Assembly: GCF_048128805.1 (NCBI RefSeq)
Contig: NC_135997.1
Location: 22,739,815-22,803,814 of the forward strand
Length of the DNA: 64,000 nucleotides
Direction of reading: 5' to 3'
From: Centroberyx gerrardi
Lineage: Eukaryota; Chordata; Actinopteri; Beryciformes; Berycidae
The position numbers and the translations under genes are program-made. The notes below the pieces were generated by a model. It was given only the letters and a program-made list of their open reading frames with translations, was not told the origin of the DNA and did no database searches. This document shows positions 7,001 through 47,990 of this stretch, piece by piece; position 1 is the first letter of the stretch; the number at the start of each line of letters is the position of its first letter.

Positions 7001-7463
7001 CTACACAACTCACCTGCTTCTCACTGACTCTCAGGGGCCCAAACACCACACACTGGATCATCTTAGCGATTAACATCAAAGAGCAGCAAAACGTGTTGAC
7101 TAACACCTGGGGAGGGACAAAGAAGAAAGAAACATTATTGTTTTGGTAAACAAACAAACAATACTATCTTATCAGACAATACAAAGTCCTATATTGTATA
7201 AAACTCACCCATACAAAAAGACTGTCAGTGACGAGATACCACAGGACAGCAGTTGCCAATTCTGTGTCCCCAATATCATTACTTAGATGTTCAAGATCAA
7301 CTTCAGAGGGAGTAGGTGTTTCATCTGTCTCCAAGGTCCCAAAGCCCTGGTCAGTCACAGTGGTATAGGCACTGAAGATGCTGCCAGCGAGCAGAGCCAC
7401 ACTCAGCGCTGTGTAGGTCTGCAGGCTAGGCCAAGGAAACCTCTCCAAGAACAGTAGAGGCAT
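1013..7463 (-). CDS. amfr: Amfr/gp78-like ER membrane E3 ubiquitin ligase (5' part, nine coding exons)
   Basis: AMFR (gp78) is a polytopic ER ubiquitin ligase acting in ER-associated degradation. Coding exons on the minus strand, in transcript order, are 7463-7209, 7106-7014, 6710-6546, 4471-4319, 3699-3659, 2741-2609, 2250-2117, 1750-1640 and 1209-1013. All are joined by GT-AG sites with matching phases and give about 427 codons. The protein starts MPLLFLERFPWPSLQTYTAL, as in mammalian AMFR. Hydrophobic membrane segments fill roughly residues 15-300. The RING-H2 domain is at about 341-380: CAIC in exon 8, then CGHLFHNSCLRSW split across exons 8 and 9, then CPTC. The last exon ends in NQHNHFFHFDG. 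The remaining exons, expected to encode the CUE, p97-binding and E2-binding regions of the family, are not in the window and should lie to the left. The gene is divergent from the receptor pair. Teleosts may carry two amfr copies; I cannot say which this is. Confidence 0.93.
1303..1365. repeat. Two adjacent short perfect hairpins in amfr intron 8
   Basis: CTAACTTC and GAAGTTAG flank a TGG-type centre. Immediately after, ACAAATGTCAAAT pairs with ATTTGACATTTGT around a few bases. The intron separates the two halves of the RING domain. They could be a tiny MITE remnant; no function is implied. Confidence 0.5.
6320..6460 (-). repeat. tRNA-derived SINE fragment (degenerate)
   Basis: Read on the minus strand the segment has an A-box-like TAGAGCATGGTGC and a B-box-like GGTTCCATTCC at tRNA spacing. 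They are followed by a tail containing the TTATCCAAAGCGCCTTACAG motif (written on the plus strand), common in dispersed teleost repeats. It sits in an amfr intron and is too degenerate to be a working tRNA. Confidence 0.55.
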
Positions 7464-7550
7464 TGCAATGTTGAGGCTCTACTTCTCACACCACCAAACT
7501 TGGGAAATTAGCGTATAATGATCCCCGAGCTGAATGAACTCTGCAAACAA

Positions 7551-8980: not shown

Positions 8981-9803
8981 AAACCTGCAACTTCACAAAT
9001 GGCATTAGTGGTAATGTGGTCGTAAGGCAGTGTATTTTTTGTTGAGGTCCCGGTGGCTGGAATTGATTAATTTTGAAGAATATGGAATTTGTGACACCTC
9101 AGGATTATAGACTCTATCACACTTTTTTTGTAATTTCGTGATCAGAGGTACAAAGCACCAGTGCAGCTGCGGCACAATTGTAAAATGAGTTGGATTTGCA
9201 GGAATATATTATCAATCCAATCAGCTCCTCTTATTCCCTTTAAAAGCAGTGTGTTTCCAGCCATGGTGCACAGACAGTTTTGTAATGAATGAGAGTCCAG
9301 ACCGGCTGCGCCAAAAAAAAGAGAGGAAAAAGAGGAAACTGATGTACTCGTTCAGGAGGGGCAGAGTTGCAAGGCACTGATGTGGAATTTATGTTTCTGG
9401 AGATAATGAAATTCCTGTCGCTATGCTTTCCATGCACATCGACAGCTTTATGTTGCAAGACAATGATTCACACAATCTTCACATGTGCATAAAACCTAAC
9501 TATATTAAGCTATGGTCTGAACTATAACATGAAAAAAGCACTAAAGCACTAGAATTAAGAAAAATGACCAATGCCTCTTCTTCTTGACTGCCTAAGAATA
9601 GAATAACGAGTAGAGAAAAAACATCTAAATGAACCTTGAACTTTTCCCCACTATTATCTTCAGAATGATAGGCGGGTAGGCTATCCACTTTATTGTGATT
9701 TCATGCATCCCATTGGTTTTGGGGCTTCAATCTTTAATCTGACACTCATTTCCCAGGCTTCCACAGTCTATGATTTCATTTGGGTAATAATAATTTGAGC
9801 AAT
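8981..9803. other. Intergenic spacer between amfr and receptor copy 1
   Basis: No gene was recognised. It is moderately AT-rich, with a purine run near 9315-9345. An inverted CCAAT box (CCATTGG) lies near 9711, upstream of the receptor TATA box. Confidence 0.5.
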
Positions 9804-9810
9804 TATAAAA
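9804..9810 (+). promoter_or_regulatory. TATA box for leukotriene receptor copy 1
   Basis: TATAAAA lies about 120 bp before the chosen ATG, predicting a start near 9835 and a roughly 95-nt leader. The leader is open in the receptor frame but contains no in-frame ATG before 9930. Confidence 0.5.
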
Positions 9811-9929
9811 GACCTTTGACTTGTTTATTCGTCACGCAAGGTAAATCATTACATGGCCATCAAATTATCTCAGTTACTTTCAGTTCTAACCTGTTGTGTT
9901 ATAGAGAAGTGAAGGCTAAAAATACAAAA

Positions 9930-10958
9930 ATGAGCATCTCGTACACTTCAGAGAATGCTACAGGCTTAGCGGTAGATCAGCGGTCTGCTGTAGGTGGTCC
10001 AGTTTCCAGTGTGATCCTGGGCCTGTCCTTCCTGGTGGGGGTTCCGGGGAACCTGCTGGTGATCTGGACTATCCTGAGACATGTCACGCAGCGCTCCCAC
10101 ACCGTGGTGCTCATCCTTCACCTGGCTGCCGCTGACCTGCTGGTGCTCATCACCCTGCCTCTGTGGATCTACTCCCTGGCGTACTCCTGGGTCTTCGGAG
10201 AGGCCTCCTGCAAGGCCATGGTGTACATCATCAAAGTCTGCATGTTCAGCAGCGTCTTCTTCATCACCCTCATGAGTGTGGAGCGCTTTCTGTTCATCCG
10301 GTATCCTTTTGAGATGCTGGCATGGAAGGACACGGCCATTATGGACACATTTCTGGGAGTCATGTGGCTCCTGGCTTTCCTTTTGGGAGTTCCTGCCATA
10401 CTGACCCAGCGTGTGGATACAATTGATGGGACTGAGCAGTGTCTTGAAATGGAGTACAGCTCTGTGGCACAAGAGATGATTTGCTTATGCCTGGACACTT
10501 TGGGGGGCTTTGTAGCTCCCTTCACCATCCTTGGTATCTGTTACTGTCTAGTAGCTGCCCAGCTCAAGGGCATGCATCTCCAACACAAACAGAAATCCAT
10601 GGTTCTCATCAGCAGTGTGGTGATAGCCTTCACACTGTGTTGGTTGCCTTACCATATCATCAACATTATTGATCTGGTTTGCATCCTAACACGGGACACA
10701 AATGATGGAGCTAGATGTGCGCCGGAGAGTTTAATCTTCATCTCTGGGGCCCTTACCTTCATTAGCAGCTCAGTGAATCCTGTGCTGTACGCCCTCATTG
10801 CTAAGAATTTCCAAGGGAGTCTCCAGGAGACCCGATTGGTCAGGCTGTTCCAGGAAGTGGCCACTCACACCAACAAACTTAGAGAACAAGTAGTACAGTA
10901 TCAGATTGGCAAGAGAGCAACAAAACCACAGACAGAGCAGATGTCTGACATTGTGTGA
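9930..10958 (+). CDS. ltb4r-like: Leukotriene B4 receptor-like GPCR, copy 1
   Basis: A single-exon class A GPCR of 342 aa. LTB4 receptors are Gi-type chemoattractant receptors on leukocytes. The extracellular N-terminus has an N-glycosylation site (N9-A-T). TM1 carries GVPGN (N41), TM2 carries AAADLL (D69), and C94 is the TM3 disulfide cysteine. The TM3 end is ERF (118-120) in place of DRY. TM6 has CWLPYH, as in BLT1 (WLPYHVVN). TM7 has SSSVNPVLYA. The start at 9930 is the first in-frame ATG; the open frame extends upstream only with non-ATG codons. Codons 28-98 are nearly identical in DNA to copy 2 while the rest is much more diverged and less GC-rich. Its nearest relatives are BLT1/BLT2; which subtype is unresolved. 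Confidence 0.82.
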   Translation: MSISYTSENATGLAVDQRSAVGGPVSSVILGLSFLVGVPGNLLVIWTILRHVTQRSHTVVLILHLAAADLLVLITLPLWIYSLAYSWVFGEASCKAMVYIIKVCMFSSVFFITLMSVERFLFIRYPFEMLAWKDTAIMDTFLGVMWLLAFLLGVPAILTQRVDTIDGTEQCLEMEYSSVAQEMICLCLDTLGGFVAPFTILGICYCLVAAQLKGMHLQHKQKSMVLISSVVIAFTLCWLPYHIINIIDLVCILTRDTNDGARCAPESLIFISGALTFISSSVNPVLYALIAKNFQGSLQETRLVRLFQEVATHTNKLREQVVQYQIGKRATKPQTEQMSDIV

Positions 10959-12786
10959 GAAAAAAGTGTGAAACTGTCACTGTGACAGTGTGAAACTGTG
11001 ACTGTGACTTTTTTTTTTCTCAACAATGCTTGGTTAGTTCAATATAATAGGAAAACTAGGGAGGAATGTTGTTTTCCCTCAGCTTTAGCTCAATTCTGTA
11101 GTTAATTAAGGGAATAGATTTCATAATGGAGGCCTTCATATGAACAACAACATAGGTCTGATTTAAGGTTTTGGCTGACTGTTTACAAATATCACTATCC
11201 TAAGACTGCACATTGCAATATTGCACTGACTCATAAAGACAGCAGAGGTTGTATCTGGTGATGCATAGCGTTCACACTCCAAATTATGTAGGTTGAATAG
11301 AAAACTGAGCATATTAGCTGTTACCAGAGTTGTTTGGCTCTTTGTCTTAAGACGTCAGTTATTTTCCAGGGGAATACCATATCCTCCCATCCTTTTTTCA
11401 AATACACCCCTAGATGTCACTGATGAATACATATGATTATGATGTATATGTTTCTCTAAATGGGAATGATAGTTGTGATCGTCTTAAGTTTTAAATGTGA
11501 TATTCTGCACTATATGTCATATTTTTTGAGGACCTCATGGTTTATATTGTCCAAGTGACAAAATGCTAAAATACTAACCTTCAAATGGTGAGGCCTCTGT
11601 CTTTTTTAGTTGAGAAATGAAATGAAATACCTCACTTAATGTTGACTTAATGTTTTGAAAACTGATAAAATTGTTTCATTTTGAATTATTTTGCACATTA
11701 GTAAAACTTGATCAGAGTAACCCAGATTTTGAAGTAGGACTGTTCTACATGATGTAGTTTCTTGCCTGTTTGTGTGAAAGAAGAAATGTCTAAATAATGT
11801 ATTGTTCTTTGGAGCTGATATTTCAGTTGAATCATTATCAGTTGTATCATATTGGTGATATTAGTTTCAAATGATCTATCGCAGTTCCAAGTAAATAGAA
11901 TAAATAAATAATTGTCTATGGGCTCCAACAATGTTTTCTGTGTTTTGATAAAGTGAATCTGTGTCCTATAAGAAACATGGCAAAAATCAGGATTCTAAGA
12001 GACATTAAATTACAATAGATGCTGAGGTGAAATAATATCATTAGAAGTCATTCATAATCCAGGCTTCCAGGCATGAGGTTAGACTTACTCCTGTGACAAT
12101 GAAATGTTGGAAGAGCTTGTTAAACACAGAACCATGGAGGGCATCAAGGTTGGACCCTTCGTGGTTTACTTATGGGGTGGACAGTCCCATTGGGGCTTTA
12201 TTAAATCTGATCTATGAATACATTACTTTCTGGTTGGAAATCTATTCTATTTATGAGTCGATTATGCATTACCATCAAGAGGCAAAACCTGAAGCTGTTT
12301 AGTTTACAAGTAACTGCAGATTAACTTTGTGAACTGACAGAATGTTTGAATTTTTACATCTAAATGAATCATGGTAGTGCTAGAAGCGCTGTTTTATAAA
12401 ATATGATGCATATAAACACAAAGTTGCTCCCCCAGTTGAGATCACTGGTATAACATATTGGTGTAAGATATGTAAATTCTGTTTTCGGGTGGATTTTTTT
12501 TATTCATTTAATGTCCTTGACTATATCACTTGGACCACATTTCACAGAGCAACTTCATTTCCTTTAACACCCTAATCCAAGATCTCAGCTCTAAAACTTG
12601 ACTTGCTCATTGTCTCTCGTGACACAAGGGCCAGATGGATGAATCATCTCTCCGTCGCTCAGATGGCCCTGTGAGAAACCCCTTTCCTGTTCACTCTACA
12701 CTTAAAGGGAAGTGAAGGCTTGCTTGTGCAGCACTTTTTTTTTTTCTCTTCATGAGGACACCACTGGCAGCACACACGCATGCAGC
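10959..12786. other. 3'UTR of receptor copy 1 and spacer before copy 2
   Basis: AT-rich and without convincing coding sequence. Two overlapping AATAAA signals at 11899-11908 are the likely poly(A) signals for copy 1, giving a 3'UTR near 950 nt. A short GAAGTGAAGGCT block at about 12709 also occurs just before the ATG of copy 1 (about 9906), consistent with tandem duplication including 5' sequence. Confidence 0.5.
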
Positions 12787-13872
12787 ATGAACCTCTCAGT
12801 GGATCTGCCTTCTTCCGAAGACATGGCCCCTGAGGAGTTTGCCGGCGGGACAGCGGTGTCTTGTGTGATCCTGGGCCTGTCCTTCCTGGCGGGGGCTCCA
12901 GGGAACCTGCTGGTGATCTGGACTATCCTGAGACACGTCACGCAGCGCTCCCACACCGTGGTGCTCATCCTGCACCTGGCTGCCGCTGACCTGCTGGTGC
13001 TCATCACCCTGCCTCTGTGGATCTACTCCCTGGCGTACTCCTGGGTCTTCGGAGAGGCCTCCTGTAAGGTCATGGTGTTCGTCATCTACGCCTGTATGTA
13101 CAGCAGCGTCTTCCTCATCACCCTCATGAGCGTGGAGCGCTTTGTGGCCGTGCGACACCCGTTTGCCTCAGTCGACTGGAGGAGAAAAAAAGCCCTGAAT
13201 AAAGTGCTGCTGGCCCTGTGGGCTGCAGCGTTCCTGTTCAGCATACCTGTCATCCCGACCCAGATGGTGGACGGACCCAGCGGGGAGGAGCAATGTCTGT
13301 ACCGGCTGTACACCTCAGACATCCAGGAGATGGTGTGTGTGCTGCTGGAGACTCTAGTGGGCTACATCGTGCCCCTCTCCATCCTGGTGGTTTGCTACGG
13401 CTGCCTGTGCAGCCGTATCACTCAGATGACCTTCAAGTCCAAGCGCAAGTCCACGGTCCTGATCGCCAGCGTGGTGGTGGTGTTCGCCGTGTGTTGGACG
13501 CCGCATCATGTGGGCAACGTCCTCTCACTCGTCTACCTGGCCATTAAAGACTCCCACCGCGATGCAGCAGATAATGTGGAGAGTGCGAGGAACACCATGA
13601 CCATTATCGCTGGAGCCATGGTCTTCATCAGCAGCACCGTCAACCCCATCCTCTACATGTTTGCGGCACGCTCGTTCCGCAGCTCGCTGCGGGACACAGG
13701 GATCCAGAAGCTCTTCCGCCACATCTCCAGCACCTCCCCAGGTGAGGGCAATAGAGAGTTGTCCTTTGTGTCCAAGAGACAGAGCCATCAGACCAACAGT
13801 TCTCAGTGTCTATCTGAGTCCAAAGACCAAATGGATGTTCTAATAAACATGTGTGAAAATGGTCCATCTTGA
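12787..13872 (+). CDS. ltb4r-like: Leukotriene B4 receptor-like GPCR, copy 2
   Basis: A single-exon class A GPCR of 361 aa, in tandem and the same orientation as copy 1 about 1.8 kb upstream. An N-linked site is at N2-L-S. TM1 has GAPGN (N40), D68 is in TM2, C93 is at TM3, and the ERF motif is at 117-119, followed by VAVRHPF, closer to typical chemoattractant receptors than copy 1. TM6 has CWTPHH and TM7 has SSTVNPILYMF. The Ser/Thr-rich C-tail is longer than in copy 1, suggesting phosphorylation-dependent desensitisation (inference). The start at 12787 is the first in-frame ATG; M13 is an alternative. The gene is GC-rich throughout. The family assignment rests on overall similarity to BLT1, including the SARNTM...VFISSTVNP stretch; the ligand is inferred. 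Confidence 0.83.
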   Translation: MNLSVDLPSSEDMAPEEFAGGTAVSCVILGLSFLAGAPGNLLVIWTILRHVTQRSHTVVLILHLAAADLLVLITLPLWIYSLAYSWVFGEASCKVMVFVIYACMYSSVFLITLMSVERFVAVRHPFASVDWRRKKALNKVLLALWAAAFLFSIPVIPTQMVDGPSGEEQCLYRLYTSDIQEMVCVLLETLVGYIVPLSILVVCYGCLCSRITQMTFKSKRKSTVLIASVVVVFAVCWTPHHVGNVLSLVYLAIKDSHRDAADNVESARNTMTIIAGAMVFISSTVNPILYMFAARSFRSSLRDTGIQKLFRHISSTSPGEGNRELSFVSKRQSHQTNSSQCLSESKDQMDVLINMCENGPS

Positions 13873-22510: not shown

Positions 22511-25500
22511 ATGGCTTCGCACAGTGATACTCTGGTGGTGTTCTTTGGGGCAACAGCTGGTGCAAATGGGGGTAAACTGGGTTCGGATGAGAGGGAAATA
22601 ATTCTCTTGGTGTGGCAAATTGTGGATCTACATGAGAAAAAGGTACGAACCTTTCTGACCCGTTGTAAGGTTTCTTATGTAGCCAAAGTGTTTGTGGCAC
22701 AGTGTCTACCTGTAGTGGAATAGTAGTATGTTTGACAGCTGACATTTAAATCAACAAGGTGTGCTCTCTAAACCGTCCGTACTGTGTCCCCAGTGCTAGC
22801 TACATCAGTTCAAACACGCTAATTCAAACCGTCTCGTTAGCTCACCTTTTTCAGGTGTGCAACCAAAATTTTTACAAGCAGGTGAGGAGGCTGTAACGTA
22901 ATGGGGGGGAAAGCACACCTTTTTGGTTACATGTCAACTTCTCGACATAAACAACAACGCTTTATTGACAATTAAGTGCTTTTGCAACTACATTGTCAAT
23001 TGTTTGACTGTTTTTGTTAGAGTTCATTGCCTAAATTGGGGGTCGGCTATATGAAAAGTCTTAAAGGGATATATGAATGTGAAAATGAGTAGCCTTCTCT
23101 GCGCCATGAAACGCTAATTCCCTTCACAGGTCGGGAAGCTTCATAGATGTCTTGTCAAGCCAGACACTTTGGAGTTGACAGACCAGTGTAAAGAAGAGAC
23201 TGGACTGGAACTGGACGAGATCCTCAAAGCAGAGCCTCTGGACGAAGTTCTGCAACAGGTGAGACTCACTGGTTGTTAAATGGTGAGGGTGATTTCAATC
23301 ACGGATCAAAAGTGAATCTTTCAAGTCGTCTTTCCTCTTAAACTGGCCTTAAATACCCTGGTGCTCAGCTTCACACACACTATGAAATCTCTGAGCGTCA
23401 CTTAATTCAGACACATTGCAAATCCAGATAGCTCATTAAATAAGAAATCTCTAATGTCATTATAGGGAACTCTGGCAACTATACAAAACGAGATGAGACA
23501 AGCTTGACTCTGTGTAAAGCTTTAAATTAATGCAAGGTGTGTCAAGTTTCTCAGTGATGACCTTTTTGAAAAGCTATATTCCACCCGGTGGGCTATGTCA
23601 GCCGTTTGGCCCGACAGTTAAACTCTGCTGACAGTTTAGAGAGGTTTAGTAGCTAGGATGGGCAGAGCCTGGGGCTGCTGGAGATAAGGAGGGGGAAGAG
23701 GAGTCGCAGGTCTAGTCTTGTTTCAGACTGATGCATGCTGCAGACATCTGGAAGACGGAATGTTTACCTGGGAACACAGGAGGGCAGACAGGAGGGAGGG
23801 AGCCGAGCGGACTGATGTGGATGGGCTTTGAGAGCCTGGGCTTCAAGCACAGCAGCTGGTTTCAGCGGCTCATTGGGGAGGGTAGGCCATCTATTTATGA
23901 CCAAGACATGAATTTGCTTTCTGGTGCCTCCCTTTCAGTAGGTATGTTTTGACAAAAGCGCTTATGTTGTCAAACGTGTTTTTCAACCACCCTGACAAGA
24001 GTATTTGTTTGCACTTGGTGCACCCTTTCCCGCCCCCTGCAGTATTTCATAGTCTGAAAGCCTCCTATTATCATGCTGGACTAGTTGATGTTAGTGCTGC
24101 TCTGTCTCTTAATGTCACACAAGCACAAGCAGGTTGGTTGAGGTAATCAATCCAAAATGGGTTTGTTTTCTTTGGAAGCCTCTTTGGTTGGACAGTGATG
24201 ATGCTGCTGTGGTTATGACACCGAAAGCACAGACTAAGATAATTCCCATTGCATGGCAGCTTTGCCTGAATGCTGAAGTCATTTGTCTCTCACACAGGCC
24301 TAGGAAGGCTTTTCAATTCCAGTGCAAGTTAGTTTGTGTGCTGAGCCTTCAAATATTAACCCAAGCAATCAGTTCTTACTTTTCATACCTTTGTCTGGCT
24401 GTCTACTTTTTCTTGCCATTGGGCAGGCTAAATTTAATCCTTACTGATTTAAAGCAGGGAAGGAATGAAAATGGCAATATTCCAGACTGTTTGAGTCACT
24501 GCATCATACTACAGTTGTGAAGCATTTGGCTTCATAGCAGTTCTCCTCCCAGTAATTTATTTTTATTTTTTTTATCTCTGCTGACACAGCCTTTTTAGAT
24601 AACCCATTTCCACTTAAACCAATACAAATTAATTTCTGGTAAGCAGAGTGGGAACTCCTTTAGGTGGGATGGTCAGCCACCTTATTCAGTGGAATGTAGG
24701 TGTAGAGCAGAAGCCGTATCTCTCACTGATGGGCTTGTCAGTGTCGACTTATGTGGCCAGGGCCCCCAAGGACGTCTGTTTGTTTTGGTGAAAGATTTAT
24801 TAAGCCAGGGAAGGCTGGAGAGATTAGGACTGACTTTTAACACAGACTTGCATACAATCTGACAGCTACTCCATGGTATTGTGATTTTAAATGCATAATA
24901 TTTAGAGGGTAAAACAATATTTTACTTGGTATATAAGCAAGCCAGTAACTTCCACAGACCCGGGCGGCCAATCAAACCTACAGTATATGTACATTGTCAG
25001 AATAGTAGGATGGGAAAGATGATGGCGATGGATGGTGTGTGAGTATCTGAGCATGCTTTATGACTGTAGCTGTTGGCACTTTATCACATTATGTTGTGCA
25101 CTTCACACCTGCAGTGTGGTTCCTGGAAGTGGGCTGTTTCTGTACAAGCTTGGCTTTAGGCTGGGAGAGTGACAGCATGTTACAGCCTGTGGAGTGATGC
25201 ACCTGATCTGCAGCCCTACTCTGCCACTTAGTCATAGCATTCTCATATACAATATCTAATGAATGCCACGAATGCTGACTACTGGCTTTGGCTGTCAACT
25301 TGATTAACACTTGCCTCTTGCCTACCAAGACAGCCATATTGTGACAGTGAAATATGATGAATCCCATCCCAGGGCTAACCTGGATTTTAGCCTAAAGGCT
25401 GGATAGAGTAGACAGACATGATCTGACCTTTTTTAACTCTGGATAATCACTGAACAACCATCACATTTCCTCCAATATATGGTGAAGTCACTTTCATGTT

Positions 25501-34500: not shown

Positions 34501-37500
34501 GCAGTAAGACGGAGCCAGTAGACAGTGAGACAGTGATCAGAGCGCGGGGCCTCCCATGGCAGTCCTCAGACCAGGACATTGCTCGCTTCTTTAAAGGCCT
34601 CAACATTGCCAAGTATGTTGGACCTTAACGGCAACTTCCAGTAGCCTCATTACCCCATTCAACTTTCTGAACTTCTGTTACAACAGTCCAAGTGATTTGT
34701 GTGACTGTCTCTCATCTGGAAAAAATGTGGATGTTTTTAAATTATTTTCACTAGGTTTTGGTACACTATAAGCAAAACACTGATGGTCAGATATCCCCTG
34801 TTTCCCATTGGCTGCAACTGTTTGCAAGACAATCATCATCAGTGTCCAAACTATGAAAATATAGTGACATTCTACAGGTTCTTCTTAACCTGTAGAATGT
34901 CACTATATTTTCATATTCTACAGGTTAAGAAGAACCTGTAGAATGTCACGGTATTTTCATAGTTTGGACACTTACTAAGCGAGAATGTACAGTGTGTTGT
35001 CACTAGCATTTACAGTCATTTTCAGTCACTCTGAGCTCAATAATTGATGAAATTTAAAAAACGTATAATAGAATTGTTTGCCCATGTCTGACAATGCAGT
35101 ATTGCAATTTTGGTTTACTTTGATCAAAAGTTGTGGGAGGAATTCGACTTAATTCGTTTTACAGTTTATGAAAAACAAAAAGGTGATGAACTTCATAATT
35201 TCCACACAAAAGGTTCCCATTGCACAGGCCTACATCCTCTGAAAATTGTACTCCTGTAGCATATAAGGCTGATTTTTAATTAATTTCCAAAGTTTTAAAC
35301 TTTGGATGGTTGCTATTGCGCCACCATCAGAAAGAATAGCCCTGTATTACAGTATGTGTCTAGTTTTAGTCAGAACAAATGAAGACAGAAAGATATAAAG
35401 AACAAATAATAGGCTGCCTGGCTGCCTAATGAGGTTCAGGTGTGCAGCATCTGAATCAGGGTGGGGATTTGTAACTGGGCCTCTTTCAATTGGCAGGAAA
35501 CACTTGGTACTCCCACTTTTGCTCTTGAAACCAGTGATGTGCTTGCAGAGTCTGTTTGAAATTCTCATTGTTTGACACTCTTTTGCAGCTGGGTCTGATG
35601 GGACTTGCTAGGATCAGGACCCAAATGGTTAGAACTTGGGATCAAAGGCACTAGTCATTCATTTGACATGGTAGCCCAGCTGATGAGTCAACTCCTGTCA
35701 ACAAAATGTCAGTCAGGAAAATTTGTTTGAGGAGAAATTGACTGACATGATTAGGCTCTGGCCAACCTTACTTGACCCAGCTCTGATAACCATGCTGTCA
35801 GGAGTATCTTGTTGAAGTAGAGCTGTGACTTCTCCAGCGGACTCTGTGTGTTCATGTGCACGCCTGCATGTGTGTGTGTGTGTGTATCTAGGGGTGGTGT
35901 GGCCCTATGTCTGAACGCCCAGGGCAGGAGGAACGGCGAGGCCCTAGTTCGCTTCATCAACCCAGAGCACAGAGACCTGGCCCTGGAGCGCCACAAGCAC
36001 CACATGGGCAGCCGCTACATCGAGGTTAATTTCCTGACATTTTACTTCTTTCACTCATACTGTAATTGTGAATTGTGTTCCACAGATTCAAAGTTAATTT
36101 GAAATTTGCCCTTAGCTGAATGCCAGTCCCTTTATCAAGTCCTTAGCCAATCAATTTGAGTGTGTAAAATGCCTTCAGTCAAATTGAATGGCCATAAAGG
36201 CATCTTGGGGTCATGCTGCTGCAAAAGGTGATGTTGTAATACCTTTTTCAATTAGGCTTTTAATGAATTCCCTGGTTAAAGGCTCAATATCAGTTTAACA
36301 AAATCAGTTTAACACCACCTGTGGCACCAAGATCGCCCCACTACTGATTTTGTTTGTTTACTACTATCTTTATTTTGTTTACTGGATTAAAGCTCTGTCG
36401 TTTTTGACTTTCAACTTGAGTGCAGTATATATGACATGTTGCCCCTGCATGGTTTTGAGTTGCTGGTAATTGCTATAGATGGTTTTCCTTTCGTCCTCTC
36501 AGGTCTACAAGGCCACGGGGGAGGAATTCCTCAAGATCGCTGGAGGTCAGATTTCAGATGTGTTTTTTTTTTTTCTCCTTTTCCCTCTCTTCTCATCTCT
36601 CTTCCTATGAAGACTCATGTTGAAAGGCTTTCTGTCAGTGTGTGCAAGCTTTCCATTTCATGGCTTTACTGCATCTTTGAGGAAAAACTAGACCCCCTTC
36701 ACCCTCCCACATCCGTAAAAGAGCAGCTCTTCAGTGACTGTAAAGAAGGACTCTCTCCCTCACTCGCTCTCTTGCTCTCTGTCTCTCCTCTTACCTGTGT
36801 CTTTGCCTCATCCCATCGACTCCGGCAGCTTATCTTGGGCTAATGAAAGACGCTTTGTGAGTAGCACCCCCGCTCCCCCCATCCCTTCCTCACCTCCCCG
36901 TCTCCTGCCCAACCCTCAGAGGCCAGTTGGAGAGAAACTTTACTCTTGGCTAACAGCAGCTCACCTGTTCACTCCGGCCCCGAGCCCCACTCCCGGGAGG
37001 GAGAGTGGGCCGTCGGCCGGTGTAAAGACCAGCTCAGAGCCCGTACAAAGGGGGTGTGAAGAGACAAAGGCAGGGCCCAGGGCCTCTGGACCGTGGAGCA
37101 GCAGGCAGCAGTAACACAGAACAGAGATACGAGAGAGGCAGGAGACAGAGACACGGTGTCAGTTGTAGCAGATAACTGACAGTGGACTGTGGACTTTACT
37201 CAGATGAGTTGAGATCAATACAGATAGACAACACGTCAGCAAATAGTTCAGGCAGATGAGACAGAGCTGCATTTATCAAGGGAAATTAAGGCAGTTCACA
37301 GTAAACATTAATAATATGTACTGTAAAACATTCAGTTCAACTGTCAATTACAATGCTGTTTCTTTCAAATAAATTTGATATGCATGTTGTTTGATTCGAA
37401 TAAGTTGTGTTTGAGTAGCTTGTAGCATTCCAGTTATACAAATGGTGATAAATGAGGCCCATTGGCCCGTGTCTCCTGTCTGGTGTAGATATTGGGACAT

Positions 37501-40500
37501 GACTGCAGTCAGCCATGTTCATAGCTTTACTCAGTTGAGATCCATTCTAGCTAGTAAGTAAAAATGTGCTCTGCCCTGAGCAGGAAGTTACAAACCATGG
37601 GCTATAGTGAAATTTATATCTATAATTTAGTCTATTTCCATGATCATAAGATGACAAGTAATCACATCTTGGGATAGTTCATGAAAATGAGAAACAGACA
37701 GCAGACAATTTTTGTTGTATTTATTCAACACTTTTCTACAGTTTGGCAATGCAGAGATGACAGAACTAGGGCCAAAGGAAAAGTTCATGACATAATCAAA
37801 GTCACTATTGTTTACTTGAAACCTTTGCCTAACTGACAAAATCAACAAGATACAAAAAATGCACAAATTTTGTTTCTAGGACAGAATGAGTGACAATGGG
37901 AAAGAGTAAGCCTCGTTTGGCCCAGCAGTGGAAGGTCTTTGATCAGCGGGTCTTTGATCATAATTGTGTTCTGACACCAGGCACGTCCAATGAGGTGGCC
38001 CAGTTCCTGTCCAAAGAGAACCAGGTGATTATCCGTATGCGGGGGCTGCCATTCACCGCCACGCCCCAGGACGTGCTGGCCTTCCTGGGTCCTGAGAGCC
38101 CCGTCACAGACGCCACTGAGGGCCTGCTCTTTGTCAAGTATCCTGACGGACGGCCCACCGGCGACGCCTTTGTGCTCTTCTCTTGTGAAGAGTATGCCCA
38201 GAATGCCCTGAAGAAGCACAAGCAGATCCTGGGGAAGCGATATATTGAGCTGTTCCGGAGTACTGCTGCTGAGGTGCAACAGGTAAATGCTTGTAGACAT
38301 ATGGGCTAAACGTGGGCTCTACTAGCCGTAAACATCCCCATTGTAACATGAAAAAACAAATCACATTAACCAGGATGTCATAGAACACTGTTGTGCAGAC
38401 AAGCTCTGCAGGCTGCAAAACTGTCACTTTATATATTTAGATATCAATAGAAGTAGAAAAAAATGTACATTAAATGTGCATTATTACTAAATATCTATAT
38501 AGATTATGTATGGTGTGGGTTTTATCTAATCACAATTGGGGGGGTTGTATCCCTATGAAATGTGTGAAATGTTTCAGGTGAACATTAAGATTGGTAAGGG
38601 GAGGAGGGGAAACCAAACTCTTTTAGATGGAAAGATGGATACATACATGCATAATTTATCCCCTGGAAGGAATTTGAGTGCTGTCAGCCACATAATAAAT
38701 GAAAGCATATTAAAGATCCATGCTTTTCATTTGGTTGCAATCAAGGCTCTTGAGAAAGACTCCTTGTAATTATTGAACAGTCAAGAAAGTCCCTTCCTAT
38801 CTCTGACATCCATCAGTTGGGCTGAGGCCCGCAGCAGCGGCTTCACATGAGAGAGGTTGCACAAGAACTGATGTCATGACAGTGTAGAAAAGTGAACAAA
38901 CACAGGAATGAAAGCGTGTGACAAATTAGTCTGGGGTTCCAATAACTCAGATGATGGTGGGTGGTTGCAACACTGGAAGTAACCCTCATACTATTGCACA
39001 ATTTATTTCAATTTTTATGACCTTGAGAAGTCAATGTCAACATTTTGACCTCTGCCTCAGTACTTGGCTGTGGAAAGTTAATGACAAGTGTACAGAATTA
39101 CCTTTTTTTTTTTTTTTTTATTCCAATATGTTTTTCCATGGAAAAATCTTGTATTTATCTGTGCAACTGATGATATCAAGCACATGTAGAAAATATTCTG
39201 TGAGTCCACCCATTGACAATGCATTGTCAAAGGTCATTTGGGGTCAAATGAACCTTTCTATCCTAAATTCTTGAGAAAGTTGACTTTTAAGAGATACAAG
39301 GTATCCACAGGACATTAAAAATAATGTGTGTGATTTATCAGTGCGCCTTTCTCTTTCCTGTTTGCCAGGTCTTGAACCGCTACATGTCCACCCCTCTGAT
39401 CTCCACGCTGCCCCCTCCACCCATTGTGCCTGTCCCGGTCCTCGCCACGCCTCCCTTCCTTCCAACAGCCAACAGCACACGGGACTGTGTCCGCCTGCGG
39501 GGCCTGCCCTACACCGCTGCCATCGAAGACATCCTGGAGTTCATGGGAGAGCACACCATCGACATCAAACCCCACGGAGTCCACATGGTCCTCAACCAGC
39601 AGGTCAGACTGAGGAGTCGTGGCGGCTCAGTGGGCTTAGGCACTTAACGTGTACTTGTTAAGCTGTGGGTTTGAATCAAGCTCACAACCTATATCAAATA
39701 TCATCCCCACTCAGAAAAGTATTTGAAGCACATCTACATTATTTTGATTGTGTAAATACAGCAAAAAATAGAAGGCACTCGGCAGAGCGCAAACTTTTAT
39801 GTTTGTTTGTTGACAAACAACAAACAAACATAAAGCGTTATGGAGGCTGCAGCTTTGCAAGTCTGAGAATTGTTCAGCATTGGTGGAAGTTTGCGCTCTG
39901 CCGAGTGCCAGTTTGTTTTTCTGCCAGAATAGCATGTAAATGCAATGCTGTTCAGCAGCTTATTTGGAAGTCCTGGATGTCGGACTTGTCTTCCAGCACA
40001 TGAACGCAGCATAATAGTTATGACTAAAAAACAAGAAAACGTGTAATGGGGGAATCCCAGATTTGGATCACCATCAAAATCTAATCAACCGATCCTTGGG
40101 CCAATGGCTAGGCTAGCTGTCCACCAAAATTCAGCCACATCTGTTTGTAACTTTTTGAGATATCTTGCCAACAAACAGACGGGTGAAAATGTAACCTCCT
40201 TCCAACTTTGTTGGCTGAGGTAACCAGCGGTCAGTTTTCCATCAAGTAACTCAAAAGCTGTGGTTTGCACTTGGCGAAGCACCTTCAAATGATGGTTTAT
40301 AAGGGTTTCTGGATATCTCTCTCTCCCTCTCATTTAATGCAAATATACTTTACAGTACTGACATTGTACACTATTCATATGTATGCCCTATCATGATATG
40401 TTATATTATTATTATAGCACTATTTGTACTTTGTCCTGTAACTGATAGCTGGCTGCTCGTATATTCAAGGGTTTTTATGCAAAACAAACTTCTAATGTAA

Positions 40501-43500
40501 TCTTGTGCTCAGCCTCTCTTGTTCTCTCTGCCCATTTCTTCCTCTCTCTGTTCTCCAGGGCCGGCCCTCTGGTGATGCCTTCATCCAAATGAAGTCATCT
40601 GACAAGGCCTTTATGGTGGCCCAGAAGTGCCATAAAAAGACGATGAAGGACCGTTACGTGGAGGTGTTCCAGTGCTCCACAGAGGAGATGAGCATTGTCC
40701 TGATGGGAGGAACCCTCAACCGCAGTGGCCTCTCCCCTCCACCCTGCAAACTTCCCTGTAAGTTGCATCAGCAAGAGTTTCAGTGCTGTAGAACCTGATC
40801 TACCCAAACATCAGACTTCTGAAACAAACAAGTCAACATAACGGGTAGTAAATGTCTGCTGAGAAAATGTATCTGTGCAGACTGTGCTTGATTGTTGCAC
40901 TTTAAGTGATTAAACTTGATTAAAATTGAGCTATTAAATTGACAAATCTCTTACTGCCTTTACTAATATAGACAGCTATGCTTCTATCTGCCTCTGAAAC
41001 CAAGGTGCCACTTTGCACTGAGCTGAATGGTGCTCTTCTTACTCTGCACTTTGCTCTGTTGAGGCTCATATCTCTCATTTGCGCTGGAGATTAGATTTGG
41101 ACTTATCAGCCACTAGGCAGCACCTTCCAGTTTCACCACTGGTGTTTTTGACGGCCACACATTACCATTTTCTTTCCCCTTTTTGCCCTATACTTTAATA
41201 AACTTGCATTTTCACCCATATCTGTAACCTTACTGGAATTGTTGTTTAGGTAATTTCATTTGCCATGTATTGTCACCCTAACTAACCTGGAAACCCTCAA
41301 CCTCCACAAGGTCAGCAGTGCTGTATGTTGGCTGGTTGGCATGGAGGTTACCCACAGCCCCGCACTGATACTGGCTGTTTATATGTAAATATAGTACATC
41401 TATACTTCCAACTGTGTTTGTTTACATTGTAATGACGACAGCCTTAAGGACAGAGTAGGCTTTGCGACTAAAATACCTTGCATACTGAGGGCTTTTTAGG
41501 GTTTCCAGAGTCTGACTTAGGTGGTTGTTTAAGTTGAACATGTTTACAAATTCACCCGGCCCATTAATTGGTCCTGTGGAGTAGTAATGGTGTGTGGAGG
41601 TTTTTAGAAAAATGTATGATGAGTTATGTTATCACTTTACATGTTATTGCTAATTATTCTGCCTTTATGAACTACTCCAATTGCTGGGAGAAAAATGAAA
41701 GCATTCAGCCACACTTGGAACAAATTTTTGAATGGGTTAAAATGAGTATATTTCAGCTGCTGAACCTTCATCAGGATCAGGAACTGAACCGTTAAGGCTT
41801 GAACAGATGAGATGCGTTCTTTTTTTTCAGTAGAATCAAAGTATTTCTTTAGTTTACTTGTTCTCCATTTGTGGCTTAATGTTTGCTTTTTTCAGTTGAC
41901 CTGCTAAAACTGATACCTTGACAGCATTGGGCCCCATAATGACTCATGGTCCTTTTGCTGATAAGTCTCTACTTTACAAGATTGGAGATAATGACTCGGG
42001 TATATGGGGCAAGTGGATAAATGATTTGTCCCCCAAGTTGAAGAACCTGGCCTACCAGTGGTAGTACTGCTGTGATGGTATATCCTTACCCAGACATCCC
42101 TTGAGAACATCAGCAAAGTACCAAGTGGATATCAATAAAGTAAAACTTTAGTGGTGGTAAAAACGAAGCAATCATAGAAAATGACAATGTGATGCTGGAC
42201 ACGTCAGTCTTTGAGCTTCAGTACAGTTGTATTTACCATGTTGAAATTGCTGTGCAGCATGTTGAAGAAATTTTACATATGCTTAATACTACAGTGTACT
42301 TTTAGCATACTATTAGGATTGTGCATCTACCAAACAAAATTAAGATGTAATGACCAGAACTGGGGTATGTCTCTCTCTCTTCCCCCAGGTCTGTCTCCCC
42401 CGACGGCCTACGCTGCCTTCCCTGCCCCGGCCGCCATGCTCTCTGAGGCCGCCCTCTACCAGCCCCCCCTGCTGGCCACCCCCCGACCCCCCCAGCCCGC
42501 CACACACAGCCCGGCTCACACCCTGGCCTACTACCCCCCACAGCCTCACCTCTACATGAACATGAACATGAACTACACTGCTTACTACCCCAGGTTAGTA
42601 CGGTGTCCTAGGTTAGCATGAAGGCTACATAGCATGATTTTGTGAGTCAATGTGTATTAGGCAACATGTGTACACTGTATATTATCCCAACTTGGTGTGT
42701 AAACTTTGTAGTATATTGCCCATTTTCTGTGCCATTAAGAATGACTAAATAATACTCTTGATATGGCTCTGTACCCACTGTACATGACAAAATACTCTCT
42801 CTTCCAATCTCTCTTCCTCCTCCTTTTTCCAACCTCTCTTCCTCCTCCTTTCCCCTCCCTTATGTCTCTCTTTTCTTCTTTCCCTCCTCTCCAGCCCCCC
42901 AGTCTCTCCTTCCACAGTCAGCTACTTTGCAGCCCCACCGGGTGCAGTGGCGGCAGCGGTTGCAGCACAGCCCCACCCTGCCGCAGCCGCCGCCTCTCCC
43001 ATGCTGCCCCAACACGGCGCCCTGGTCCGGATGCAGGGCCTACCTTACAATACTGGTGTCAAGGACATCCTCAGCTTCTTCCAGGGCTACCAGGTGAGGA
43101 TATGTAGCGCTAAAGTGTAGGCACAGAGATAAAAAGCTGTTTTGTACCAGTACACTGAAGAACGTAGGGATCGTGCAAAGATGACTGGTGTGATGATTTG
43201 CAGCCACATAAAAGTTTGTTGCCAGTCATAAATGATACATCAGGGTGATTCTTATTTTATTGCCATGCAGGGCTTTTTGCATGTGAAATCATCCTGGGTG
43301 TGGAAGAGTTTTTAATCTTATGACTACGAATGAAAGACATTTTTTTACCTGTTGCTGAAATGCTCATATACTTTGATTATAGCTGCATTAGAATGCACAA
43401 AGCGGGGTTATCAGATTTTTGCCAAGCATCCATAGCAGCCACTTCAAAAGATCTTAAAACATAAGTTGCTTCTGTGAATAGAATCCTGTTTCCCCCTGAA

Positions 43501-44223
43501 TTTTTCGAGTTGTTGCCACAGATGCTGAGCTCTGCCTCGCATGATCAGGCACCATGATGAATTTCTTGTTTTTGTTTGTAGTGTGAATGAGACTGCTGAT
43601 AGATAGAATTATTAATTTTCATTGTGGTAAAATATATTTGCAATGATGGTAAAATGAGTGCTGACCAGGACAACTAACTGTGTAAACGCCTCTAGTGTAT
43701 TTTGTCGGTTGTGGACACTTCCCACACTGCTGCCATTGAATAGTCAGGCATTTTTACCACAGTCCCACCTGATTAAAGCCTCTAGCTATCGGGCCACTGA
43801 GCTTTTTACTCTGCTGGTAGATTACCCATACCTTTAGTGCTTTTTATTACACCACAATAGTGGTATTCAATAAAGGGACGTGTGTGCACTTGTGCTCTCC
43901 CCCTTCTCTGCACTTCCATCTCATTGGCTGCCAGCCCAAAGTAGGTGGAATCTTCTGAGGCAGGTATGAATCCTGACAGGTGTGGCTTGGGAGGGTCTGA
44001 CTAGTAGAGGGAGGAGGGGGTGAACTGAGTTTGTGTTGTGGCAAATGGTTTTGGGTCTGCTTTTTGTCTTTATGGCTCAATTCATATAGATAAAGTAGAG
44101 CAGCAACACTTAGAATCGTGTGTGTGAGCATGCCTTACTGTTGGACTATCTAGCAACAAATTCACACCATATAAGAACATCGGTCGAGCTGCGCACTGTA
44201 GAACTTCTTGTGCTGAAGGCTAA

Positions 44224-44265
<42 letters not shown>

Positions 44266-46544
44266 GTTGGTGAGAAAAGCTGACTCCAATCTTGACTGTT
44301 GGCTGAACTACAGTAATTTTATCCTTAGCGGAGTGAGTGTGTGTATGAGAGAGTTTCTTAGTGTTCCTCTGGCTGCGGTAGGTTCTCTCACACAGGCTCT
44401 GGGTGACAAACTAGTTCCCACACCAGCAGCACCGGTGTCCTTTACAACACACACCCCATGCATACGCACCGAGTGGTTCAAATCAAGCCGGTTTAGGCAG
44501 GGTTTGGTGTGTGTGTTTGTGTGTGTGTGTCTGTTTTTGTGTGCTGATGTTTGTTTGAAAAGGCCTGGGTATTTTTCCGAGCACATGCGTCTGTATTACT
44601 GTGTAACCCAAAACTGTATTGTCATATGTGCAACAATGTGGAGGCTCCCATCCTGACTGTGCGTTCGTATTATGCTGTCTGTAGTACGCCCCTGACGACT
44701 ACAGCGGCGTGGTTCAGATGAGCGAACAGGCCAGGAGTCTGATTCAGCCCAAAGAATGGCTCTGTCTTTAGGGACTCGCCCCAAGGTAAGAAGAGCCTCC
44801 TGACAGAGAGCTGGGGTGGACAGAGAGGGCATTTCCTTCTGTACCACAAGGTCTATATGTTGAGACACAATGTACAGAAATGAACAGCTGATGGACTAAC
44901 ATTGGATGGTGTTCTTCTGGACCTATTGCTGGTCCCACAGCCAAACCTCCAAGTTTTCATCAAGGAAACATGATTGCTTGGCTGCTGTTGTAATCTATAG
45001 ACCTTGTTGGAACACAGTAACTTACTGAAAATGGCTACTGTGGAATTTTGGATAATGTTCTCATAGAAATGAGCATCGTTTCATACATGCATGGGACTCA
45101 GAATCCTGGAATATTAAACACGGCTGCTGCTTCAGTGGCCAAACTTTGCCTTTTACCATGGTAACAAATCAGCTCATGCACTAAAATGCTCATTTTTTTC
45201 CACATTATCAAACATTCTATGTCAGCCATTTTACATGTACCAGTCAAATTACAATTTGAGAGGATTATGAGTGGGAATGCCCAATCTAGCCATTAAAGTT
45301 CTGAGCTCCTAACCCCAGCATGTCAACCTGCCTGCTTCCCAACCAAATCTGGGCCTGTATTCACAAAGTATCTCAAAGTATTAGGAGTGCTGATTCTGGA
45401 TTCCTGACACCCAGTTAAGTCCTACTGAATATATATACATACAATGAATGGGGACTCATCGTGCACTTCAAGAAAAGTGCTTCATGAAAAGTACGGTGCC
45501 TCTCTCCCTTGTTGATACAAATAATTAAATTCTAATTAAAGTTGGCTATAGAATTTAGGCAGTATGATGCAAAACAAGTTTACCTGCCCCCTCTTATCCA
45601 TATTAAACTTGAACAAATGACCCATTGTTTAAAACCATGCACTACCTACTGAACTACACAGGAAAAACTGAACTTAGATCAGTATTATTGCTGTGAGACA
45701 CTTACATAAAGCCTCTACAAACAGTCTTACTGATTAACGTCACTATGACTTAGTCTCTATTCAGCACTCCTACTGTAAGTCGCCTTATGAATCTGGTTTC
45801 TAAATGGCCCAACCCTCACTAACCCTTATATGAACAGTGTAGCCTGCCCCAGATGGTACACTCTCTTTTGACCATTTCCAGTGGAGGGTGTCCTGATCGC
45901 GGATGTCAACTCAGATTAACATCTCGGTTGCGCTCTTCTCTATCTCTCTCTCATGGTCTAACATCTATTTCTCTGTTCTCTAACATGCAGTCTTTCTGGG
46001 TTTTACTTACCTAACTTGATCATTGAGTTGATTTCATATCTCTGCATGTCTTCAGAGTGTTGATTTTGGACTTAAGATGTGGAAGCATGCAAGCTAACAT
46101 TCAGTCAGTGAATGGGTGTGTGTGGGCTTCTTCCCTGTGTGGGCTTCAAATTTAGGGTCCTCTGGGAACAGCATGTGCTTTTGCCATTGATCCGGCTCTG
46201 CCCATTAATCGTTTTCTACCTAACTGTGGACCGGTTTGATCGGCTTCCTAGGACCTCGCCGTTCCTCCTCAGCCCTGCTGGCTCCCCCTGGTGTTTGGAT
46301 GGTGCAGTTGCATGAAGCCAAAGTGACCCTGTGTGCCTCTTGTCTCTGTGTGTGTCTGTCTTCTGTCTCTCTCTCTCTACAGCTCCAGCCAGACGCCGTT
46401 ATCGTCTTGTACAACCTCAGCGGCCAGTGCAGCGGCGAGGCCCTGGTCACCTTCCCCAGCGAGGAGATCGCCAGGCGGGCCGTGGCCGAGCGCTCCAACC
46501 ACCCCTTCTACGGCCAGCAGGTCCGCTTGGCGTTCTGTAACTGA
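22511..46544 (+). CDS. esrp2: Epithelial splicing regulatory protein 2
   Basis: Nuclear RNA-binding protein that binds GU/UGG-rich RNA and enforces epithelial splice choices (family targets include FGFR2, CD44 and CTNND1). Common coding exons: 22511-22642, 23130-23258, 31236-31349, 32120-32234, 32935-33030, 33870-33924, 34502-34612, 35892-36024, 36503-36545, 37981-38282, 39369-39602, 40559-40757, 42389-42593, 42895-43093. These total 2067 nt, all phases consistent, 689 codons. The N-terminus ([20 protein letters not shown]) is the DnaQ-like domain typical of ESRPs. RRM1 is about 225-300, RRM2 about 325-402 and RRM3 about 451-535. A Pro/Ala-rich linker leads to a half RRM (about 665-689, [17 protein letters not shown]). 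Two alternative ends give 717 aa (exon 15a) or 742 aa (exon 15b). [10 protein letters not shown] and the Ala/Pro-rich C-terminal region favour ESRP2 over ESRP1. Confidence 0.95.
23259..31235 (+). other. esrp2 intron 2 (about 8 kb)
   Basis: The largest intron of the gene. No coding exons were recognised. It contains the Harbinger-like element at 27459-28734, a short hairpin near 26190-26230 (TTTACTCAATT pairing with AATTGAGTAAA) and a (CA)n run near 29840. Confidence 0.7.
27459..28734. mobile_element. Non-autonomous PIF/Harbinger-like DNA transposon
   Basis: The terminal inverted repeats are GGGCCTATACTACGAAGCA at 27459 and its reverse complement TGCTTCGTAGTATAGGCCC ending at 28734. The element is flanked by a 3-bp direct duplication, CAG at 27456-27458 and CAG at 28735-28737. 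A 3-bp target duplication with such ends fits PIF/Harbinger. At about 1.28 kb it has no transposase-sized frame, so it is non-autonomous. Confidence 0.8.
32336..32689. mobile_element. TTAA-ended MITE copy 2 (complete)
   Basis: It starts TTAAAGTCACAATGAAA and ends with the inverse TTTCATTGTGACTTTAA. TTAA at each edge could be a piggyBac-type target site. The 354-bp body contains ACTTCATGTCGTACC, CCAACCAATAAAACCATCAC and CCTGTTTCAACAGGA, all shared with the copy at 62672. It lies in esrp2 intron 4. Confidence 0.75.
34841..34972. repeat. Nested perfect inverted repeat in esrp2 intron 7
   Basis: AGTGTCCAAACTATGAAAAT (34841) pairs with its reverse complement ending at 34972. Within the arms, ATTCTACAGGTT, CTTCTT and AACCTGTAGAAT form smaller hairpins, repeated in opposite order. 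The arms are nearly 58 nt with few mismatches and a short centre. It lies between exons 7 and 8, which encode the two halves of RRM1. Confidence 0.8.
35869..35885 (+). repeat. (TG)n run directly abutting the esrp2 exon 8 acceptor
   Basis: Eight to nine TG units occupy the place of the polypyrimidine tract, followed by TATCTAG and the exon at 35892. See findings. Confidence 0.85.
39774..39909. repeat. Short inverted-repeat element in esrp2 intron 11
   Basis: GGCACTCGGCAGAGCGCAAA (39774) is matched by its exact reverse complement ending at 39909. Inside, TTTATGTTTGTTTGTTG pairs with CAACAAACAAACATAAA. The 136-bp fold-back has no coding sequence and is read as a miniature transposon. Confidence 0.8.
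40030..40300. repeat. Dispersed-repeat fragment in esrp2 intron 11
   Basis: It contains ACAAACAGACGGGTGAAAAT followed by GTAACCTCCTTCC, a tail seen in many dispersed retroelement fragments of fish. The class is not certain. Confidence 0.35.
44231..44550 (+). repeat. UG-rich tracts upstream of esrp2 exon 15a
   Basis: (TG)n at 44231-44257 and a second GGTTTGGTGTGTGTGTTTGT-type run at about 44500-44545 lie 140-450 nt upstream of the alternative exon. GU/UGG-rich RNA is the kind of sequence ESRP, CELF and TDP-43 proteins bind. Confidence 0.6.
44685..44785 (+). CDS. esrp2: esrp2 alternative exon 15a (stop-containing, canonical C-terminus)
   Basis: Phase-0 exon after a weak acceptor (TGCTGTCTGTAG). 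It encodes YAPDDYSG then a tail ending PKEWLCL with TAG at 44769-44771. Mammalian ESRPs end in PKEWVC(I/L), so this is the usual vertebrate end. The exon closes with a strong donor, CCAAG then GTAAG at 44786, 14 nt after the stop. It can therefore be spliced on to exon 15b as 3'UTR, and the stop is too close to that junction to be expected to trigger nonsense-mediated decay. Its length of 101 nt is not a multiple of three. Confidence 0.85.
46383..46544 (+). CDS. esrp2: esrp2 alternative terminal exon 15b (completes RRM4)
   Basis: Phase-0 start after a strong polypyrimidine acceptor (CTCTCTCTCTACAG). It encodes 53 residues: [24 protein letters not shown], an acidic then basic helix ([12 protein letters not shown]), and YGQQVRLAF before [14 protein letters not shown] matches the RNP1 strands of the same protein's RRM1 ([11 protein letters not shown]) and RRM2 ([11 protein letters not shown]). 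Joined to exon 14 it supplies the beta2-beta4 half of a fourth RRM. When exon 15a is included, this exon becomes 3'UTR. Confidence 0.85.
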   Translation, partial: LQPDAVIVLYNLSGQCSGEALVTFPSEEIARRAVAERSNHPFYGQQVRLAFCN

Positions 46545-47990
46545 CCAGTCCCACATATCACTCACCTGCCACCTCTCTCCTCCTTCCTTCATCTGCTACA
46601 ACGACTAAGGCTCCAGTAGTTCCCATCATCGTGAAAGAGTGTTTCATTAGCTATTGAACGCTCTCCCTTTTCCATGATCTGCTATTACTAATAGTTCCCC
46701 TGACGCTGCTGGCCTGCAACACTATGGAGTCATTGTTTAAAGAGTTTGGACATTGCTGTTGCCATGTCAGCTTCACTATCCTCCACAGGTCACGCTGAAG
46801 TATGCCAGTGTCCGGCATCTCACTTTGCAGATGTTATGTATGGCGTTATCGTGCATTTGCAGCTAATACTTGATTGTGAAGAGGTGGCAACATGGTGCCC
46901 ATAGTGCAGCCTGGACAAACTCCATCAGTGGCTTTGCACACACCGGTGCAGTCTGCCTTTGTATATTCATATATGTGCATTCCCTATGTGGTTGTATGTC
47001 TAAATAAGTGTATAGTTGTTCCTCCTGAAATGCTTGAGAGGTTGCCCCCACCTGACAAAAGCACAAAACCACTTCTACCCCCAACTTTTTTCTGTATATT
47101 TTTGAATTTTCTCTCTTGAACACTACACAAGATTTTTCACTTTTAGTTGGTTAGTAATCCTTTATTTTTTCCCGTCTGCAAACATAGATGTATGTACGTA
47201 TGTGCTCAACACTTTTTGATGTGCCTTCTGGCTGTGCAGTGTCGCCAATGTAAAAAAAAAAAAAAAAAGAAAACCAAAAAAAAGCCATAAAGACTGTCTT
47301 AACCTTTAATACTACTGAAACGGACAGCAGAGGGAATCTTCAACTGGCATGGCTTGATGAGATCTAGGCTCGAGCTGCAGGGACTGCTAGTTAACTCTAC
47401 AGCAACATCACAGATGTGCCTTTGTATCGACTACTTTTTTGTTTTTCTATAAAAAGCATTTATGTATGACATAATGTCATCCTATTTAGACTATGTCCAA
47501 GCACTGTAGATTTATTTCTTGTTGCTCCAATCAGAGTTAAGGACCCATGCGTGTCTTGAACAGACTAGCATGTCAGGTTGATTCTATTTTTATTAATCAC
47601 ATTTCCTCACAAAAGTGGAGATTTTGTTATTTAATGTGAAAGAACGGAGGCATATTCTGAAACCTTTTAAAATGATCGACCTCAGCTATCTCCTTAGTTC
47701 TTGTTTCCAGACTATTTATAAGGAATCGGTCTGTAGCATGCTTTAATTCTCTCCTGTTTTAGACCGGAACACTGTGTAAAGCTTGCATGAGTTCCTTTTC
47801 CTGTGACAGGTTTGGTTTTTTGTCTTTGCTGTGCCTACAATACCCAGAGTGCAATACTGGCCCAGATGAGGCTAGGTCAACCTCTGGTGGCAGAGGAGAT
47901 GTTTGTTTCTTTTGTTGCAAGTTTGAGACTTGTATGAATTTAGAACTGTGTATATGACTAAACAATAAAGATGTTGATATTGATCCATGT
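46545..47990 (+). other. esrp2: esrp2 3'UTR with poly(A) signal
   Basis: About 1.4 kb without coding potential. It ends near a canonical AATAAA at 47964-47969, so cleavage is expected around 47985. It contains an internal A-run at about 47253-47283. Confidence 0.7.

Follow-up and report, generated by a model that had tools for sequence, protein, structure and literature searches.

The reference ending of vertebrate ESRPs is the peptide PKEWVCI/L. In the esrp2 gene of Centroberyx gerrardi, which lies within the 64,000-nucleotide stretch of DNA analyzed here (the window), the exon for this ending carries a stop codon and sits between two exons that each code for half an RRM. The locus raises the question of whether the protein stops within a half domain, in a complete fourth RRM (RRM4) or, depending on splicing, in either. 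We consider it likely that three exons at the 3′ end of esrp2 form a switch in which a stop-containing cassette with a weak acceptor, exon 15a, toggles between a half and a complete RRM4. Were 15a included, the protein would end with the first half of RRM4 and a PKEWLCL tail, and the next exon, 15b, would be 3′UTR; were 15a skipped, exon 14 would join 15b in phase to give a complete C-terminal RRM4. Both mRNAs are presumably made, the second of them through a 43093-46383 junction. The splicing programme of epithelia is set by ESRPs. Should one product of esrp2 carry a chemically different fourth RRM, one-protein cDNA constructs and knockouts would miss a domain-level switch.

The esrp2 gene and its terminal exons

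The gene runs along the plus strand. A probable first coding exon (22511-22642) has no Pfam match and was assigned from its resemblance to ESRP N-termini. RRM1 spans 34524-36024, with two exons located (34524-34613 and 35893-36024), the located part of the RRM2 exon covers 37980-38282, and RRM3 (39477-40757) is split between an exon at 39477-39602 and one at 40559-40757, where the latter ends in a CKLP peptide. All three qRRMs carry the R-G-L-P-aromatic and R-Y-(I/V)-E signatures of the Esrp/Fusilli family. Among the best candidates scored, the genome holds at least two Esrp genes, one on the contig with the window (C1) and one on contig C12; we take the former to be esrp2 and the latter esrp1, both by resemblance.

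Exon 14 (42895-43093, in the numbering of a first-pass annotation made from the sequence alone) encodes a linker and the first half of RRM4 and ends in phase 0 at the donor CAG/gtgagg. Exon 15a (44685-44785, 101 nt) supplies the peptide end PKEWLCL, and its stop codon lies 14 nt before the donor AAG/gtaaga. The coding part of exon 15b (46383-46544) opens in phase 0 at 46383 and runs for 53 residues, the second half of RRM4, to a stop at 46544. A probable shared 3′UTR follows (46545-47990), its extent estimated from a hexamer scan that placed TATAAA at 47448 and AATAAA at 47964. The first-pass annotation had given the three exons with coordinates, phases and peptides that proved correct to the base. 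A stop codon close to the last exon junction usually escapes NMD. The 15a stop lies near enough to the last junction for this, so that the 15a-included mRNA should be stable, in agreement with the first-pass annotation.

Splice sites were scored with a consensus matrix and ranked against all AGs (acceptors) or GTs (donors) of the window. The acceptors of exons 14 and 15b scored 12.54 (99.9th percentile) and 9.40 (99.8th percentile), and the donors of exons 14 (score 7.31) and 15a each reached the 99.9th percentile. The acceptor of 15a, at -0.15 (85.4th percentile), scored lower than either of these and is flanked by the strong exon 14 donor and the strong 15b acceptor; the pairing of a weak acceptor with a strong donor that had been noted for 15a was thus borne out. 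We suggest that this acceptor may be the regulated site. With the same anatomy, the four-RRM form could instead be the default and 15a rarer or limited to some tissues, the switch serving mainly to remove a domain; the weak acceptor between strong sites and the good preservation of RRM4 speak for this arrangement, whereas the standing of PKEWVCI/L as the vertebrate reference ending and the presence of the 15a peptide in both Esrp genes of the fish (42% identity) speak against it. We regard it as a serious contender, albeit one with somewhat worse than even chances.

Alternatively, 15a could be a terminal exon formed through polyadenylation in the 15a-15b intron, which would leave the gene with two last exons and no cassette. 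The intron does contain ATTAAA at 45113, 45292, 45524, 45535 and 45602, but the hexamer scan listed no AATAAA there, the 15a donor ranks among the best in the window, and PMC5478600 presents the mouse Esrp1 counterparts as cassettes that precede a further exon, 16. We consider this arrangement unlikely and retain the cassette reading.

Exons 14 and 15b together encode an RRM

The first-pass annotation had proposed that 15b completes the domain begun in exon 14, and profile searches bear this out. The joined 14+15b peptide matched Pfam RRM_1 (PF00076) with 26.6 bits (E 5.4e-6), a whole-domain match that takes in profile positions 2-69 of 70, and scored 28.4 bits when trimmed to the domain; the curated cut-off of the profile is 20.7 bits. 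RRM1, RRM2 and RRM3 of the same protein scored 21.3, 25.4 and 17.9 bits, respectively, RRM3 falling below the cut-off. Exon 15b by itself reached 19.5 bits, just short of it. Up to E 1, no RRM_1 match appeared in exon 14 without a follower or in 14+15a. When the profile was run exon by exon against the fish's own genome, no window locus was among the matches listed.

We also built an HMM whose only input was RRM1-3 from the window and C12 genes, and ran it on exon 14 joined to each of 1,548 acceptor frames of at least 25 residues, drawn from the plus strand 3′ of exon 14 and from the whole reverse complement of the window. Acceptor 46383 ranked first of the 1,548 with 45.1 bits, compared with 27.3 bits for the best frame that shares no sequence with 15b and 22.4 bits for exon 14 alone. 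Read in frame 0, 15b has a third-position GC content of 0.943; its two alternative frames give 0.615 and 0.442, and the value drops to 0.47 in the 200 bases that follow the exon. Because 14+15b matches RRM_1, 46383 is the best acceptor frame and GC3 is so high in frame 0, exon 15b is a real coding exon.

A phmmer search of PDB sequences with 14+15b retrieved 42 distinct sequences at E ≤ 0.1. Of the 77 query residues, 1-74 aligned to the RRM of RBM12 (chains 2cqp, E 1.9e-12, and 2ek1, E 2.3e-12) and 2-61 to hnRNP H (chain 6dhs, the second of its RRMs to match), in each case with no gap at the exon junction. By analogy to other RRMs, this junction presumably comes after the first helix of RRM4 and before its second strand. 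In collections of prokaryotic and viral contigs, the 15b peptide had no relative.

Possible ligands of RRM4 and the second Esrp gene

For human ESRP1 qRRM2, whose crystal structure is described in PMC10853802, GGU binding is lost when F335, R397 or Y398 is mutated to alanine and is much weaker in the R331A and E400A mutants. The residues of RRM4 that correspond to R331, F335, R397, Y398 and E400 are Q, Y, Q, Q and R, so that the aromatic residue at 335 is kept and four of the five are replaced; shifting the alignment of the C-terminal strand by one column would put V and L at the equivalents of 398 and 400 and leave the outcome unchanged. RRM1-3 of the fish protein keep all five positions in kind. 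RRM4 also departs from the RNP1 consensus in having none of the usual aromatics. It has the sequence of an RRM fold and, with four of five GGU-binding side chains replaced, is probably not a GGU clamp or fourth GGU reader. On this point the first-pass annotation, which had treated it as simply another RNA-binding domain of the Esrp kind, needs correction. RRM4 might instead act through protein contacts or another RNA. Within the compared set of structures (7wrn, 6dhs, 2cqp and 2ek1), its likeness is to the RBM12 and hnRNP H domains and its difference from ESRP1 qRRM2 lies in those four side chains; unlike the qRRMs of ESRP1 and hnRNP H/F and the RRM of RBM12, RRM4 would be formed by one splice choice only.

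The Esrp gene on C12 offers a comparison. Compared with the window gene, its RRM1 exons are 96% and 86% identical, RRM2 is 71% identical and the RRM3 exons are 65% and 52% identical; identity falls to 39% for exon 14 and 42% for 15a. The counterpart of 15a ends in PKEWVCI and a stop, with 21 nt from the stop to a good donor, and its acceptor scores 4.88 against -0.15 for that of the window gene. No 15b was recognised by tblastn in ~40 kb at the C12 gene, where the matches were RRM1 (E 0.001) and three weaker ones (E 0.019, 3.4 and 4.8), none of them downstream of 15a on the strand of the gene; we count this absence against the switch as we propose it. Exon 14 of C12 joined to either possible follower gave 3.8 and 3.1 bits with the custom HMM, compared with 22.4 bits for exon 14 of the window gene alone, and no Pfam RRM. 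From these scores the RRM4 half of the C12 gene appears to have decayed. In this single comparison of two genes, the intact RRM4 goes with the weak 15a acceptor and the decayed one with the better acceptor.

A candidate for the last coding exon of the C12 gene (L025, C12:14297315-14297184, minus strand, phase 0) encodes SPAESVPLLSSSLIGQSSGGDAPLMSLPLMTKPGGQYLDLTLL followed by a stop. It was picked out by eye, follows a strong acceptor and is comparable with 15b in position only. We rejected it as a 15b counterpart: 358 of 2000 shuffles reached its score against 15b, 150 of 958 window frames (a 15b fragment and RRM1 among the 150) scored as high, other downstream frames scored higher, and joining it to C12 exon 14 produced no RRM.

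The state of the C12 gene could be taken to mean that 15b, too, is now 3′UTR only, an untranslated relic of an older fourth RRM, since the RRM4 of C12 looks like one. A relic in esrp2 should then resemble the C12 gene; what is found instead is an intact 53-codon frame with its GC3 signature, an RRM score no worse than those of the constitutive domains and a strong, in-phase acceptor. We give this reading very little credence and keep to a 15b that is translated when 15a is skipped. More tentatively, and with rather more doubt than confidence, we speculate that the vertebrate Esrp ancestor had four RRMs, the last switched by a stop cassette, and that the duplicates divided the switches between them. 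On that scheme esrp2 would have retained a working RRM4 with a weak, regulated stop exon, and esrp1 a stronger stop exon, a decayed RRM4 and the tandem GT donors of exon 12, while RRM4 would be a non-GGU module that alters the choice of partners or targets by Esrp2.

The donors named in that scheme lie at the end of the CKLP exon. In the window gene (40740-40765) the distal donor reads CCCT/GTAAGT, and 12 nt upstream, at the place where splicing would drop CKLP, stands CCCT/GCAAAC, a GC and not a GT site; at this exon end the C12 gene offers a pair of GT donors separated by 12 nt. Tandem donors in mouse Esrp1 exon 12 switch the protein between nuclear and cytoplasmic locations. The window gene may be restricted to the form with CKLP, which is nuclear in mouse.

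Relation to the published Esrp1 cassettes and regulation of 15a

The exon toggle has a published counterpart, because Yang and Carstens (2017) describe exons 14 (151 nt) and 15 (72 nt) of Esrp1 as cassettes conserved between human and mouse; transcripts may contain both, neither or one without the other, and the stop codon falls in exon 15 with both in and in exon 16 with both out (PMC5478600). The splicing switch as such is thus already known in Esrp1. The first-pass annotation took the half domain to be where canonical vertebrate ESRPs stop, which is too simple, since these mouse and human exons can be skipped, one at a time or both at once (PMC5478600).

The two systems belong to one family and agree, as far as the excerpts of PMC5478600 describe Esrp1, in that both cassettes lie downstream of RRM3 and the CKLP exon, the first cassette has a length of 1 mod 3 (151 nt in Esrp1, 199 nt in the fish), the stop codon is in the second cassette and translation can also end one exon later. 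They differ in the second exon (72 nt in Esrp1, 101 nt in the fish), in the gene, which in the fish is apparently esrp2, and in the product: the joined exons of the fish complete an RRM, whereas the Esrp1 account concerns three RRMs and tests of localisation. No effect of mouse exons 14 and 15 on localisation was seen in the same excerpts (PMC5478600), which we count against our preferred explanation. Splicing of exon 13 straight to 15b, the equivalent of the published mouse form that lacks both cassettes, would bring into use frame 1 of exon 15b, which is open for ~74 codons (46384-46608).

In the excerpts consulted, ESRPs are described as three-RRM proteins (PMC5478600, PMC4566030 and PMC10853802), and those of PMC5478600 make no statement on the product of Esrp1 exon 14 joined straight to exon 16. 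We found no description of a fourth ESRP RRM in a search of the open-access literature, nor any mention of one in the excerpts of PMC5478600, PMC5703972, PMC4566030, PMC7774891, PMC6357513, PMC12838563 and PMC5342015; a fourth RRM gained by skipping of a stop exon was likewise not found described there. Melanoma transcripts that hold only exons 13-16 of ESRP1 are cited in the excerpts of PMC5342015.

UG-rich tracts upstream of 15a had been read in the first-pass annotation as a sign of feedback by Esrp or CELF. We counted motifs against 200 first-order Markov sequences in each of 24 region-by-motif tests, uncorrected. In intron 14, before 15a, GGT was at background (27 occurrences, 27.8 expected) and TGTGTG in excess (22, 4.0 expected; reached in 0/200 simulations). 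Much of that excess sits in two TG microsatellites, a 28-base run at 44230-44257 and a 12-base run at 44518-44529, of a type common in the window, which holds 16 TG/GT/CA/AC runs of at least 12 bases. With GGU at background and the UG excess largely in such repeats, the proposed feedback is unsupported. The 15a-15b intron contains TGTGTG six times (1.2 expected; 1/200 simulations) and the Rbfox-like GCATG six times (1.7 expected; 3/200 simulations), both modestly high but uncorrected for the number of tests, and we base no conclusion on either excess.

Elsewhere in the window, two adjoining single-frame genes on the plus strand (9774-10955 and 12706-13869) encode GPCRs of the rhodopsin family (7tm_1, E 2.1e-50 and 4.3e-51). 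On the minus strand, exons at 918-7478 resemble those of a RING E3 ligase, with TPR_SYVN1_N at 24.6 bits and zf-RING_2 at 19 bits, both below their Pfam cut-offs; these exons may belong to amfr/gp78.
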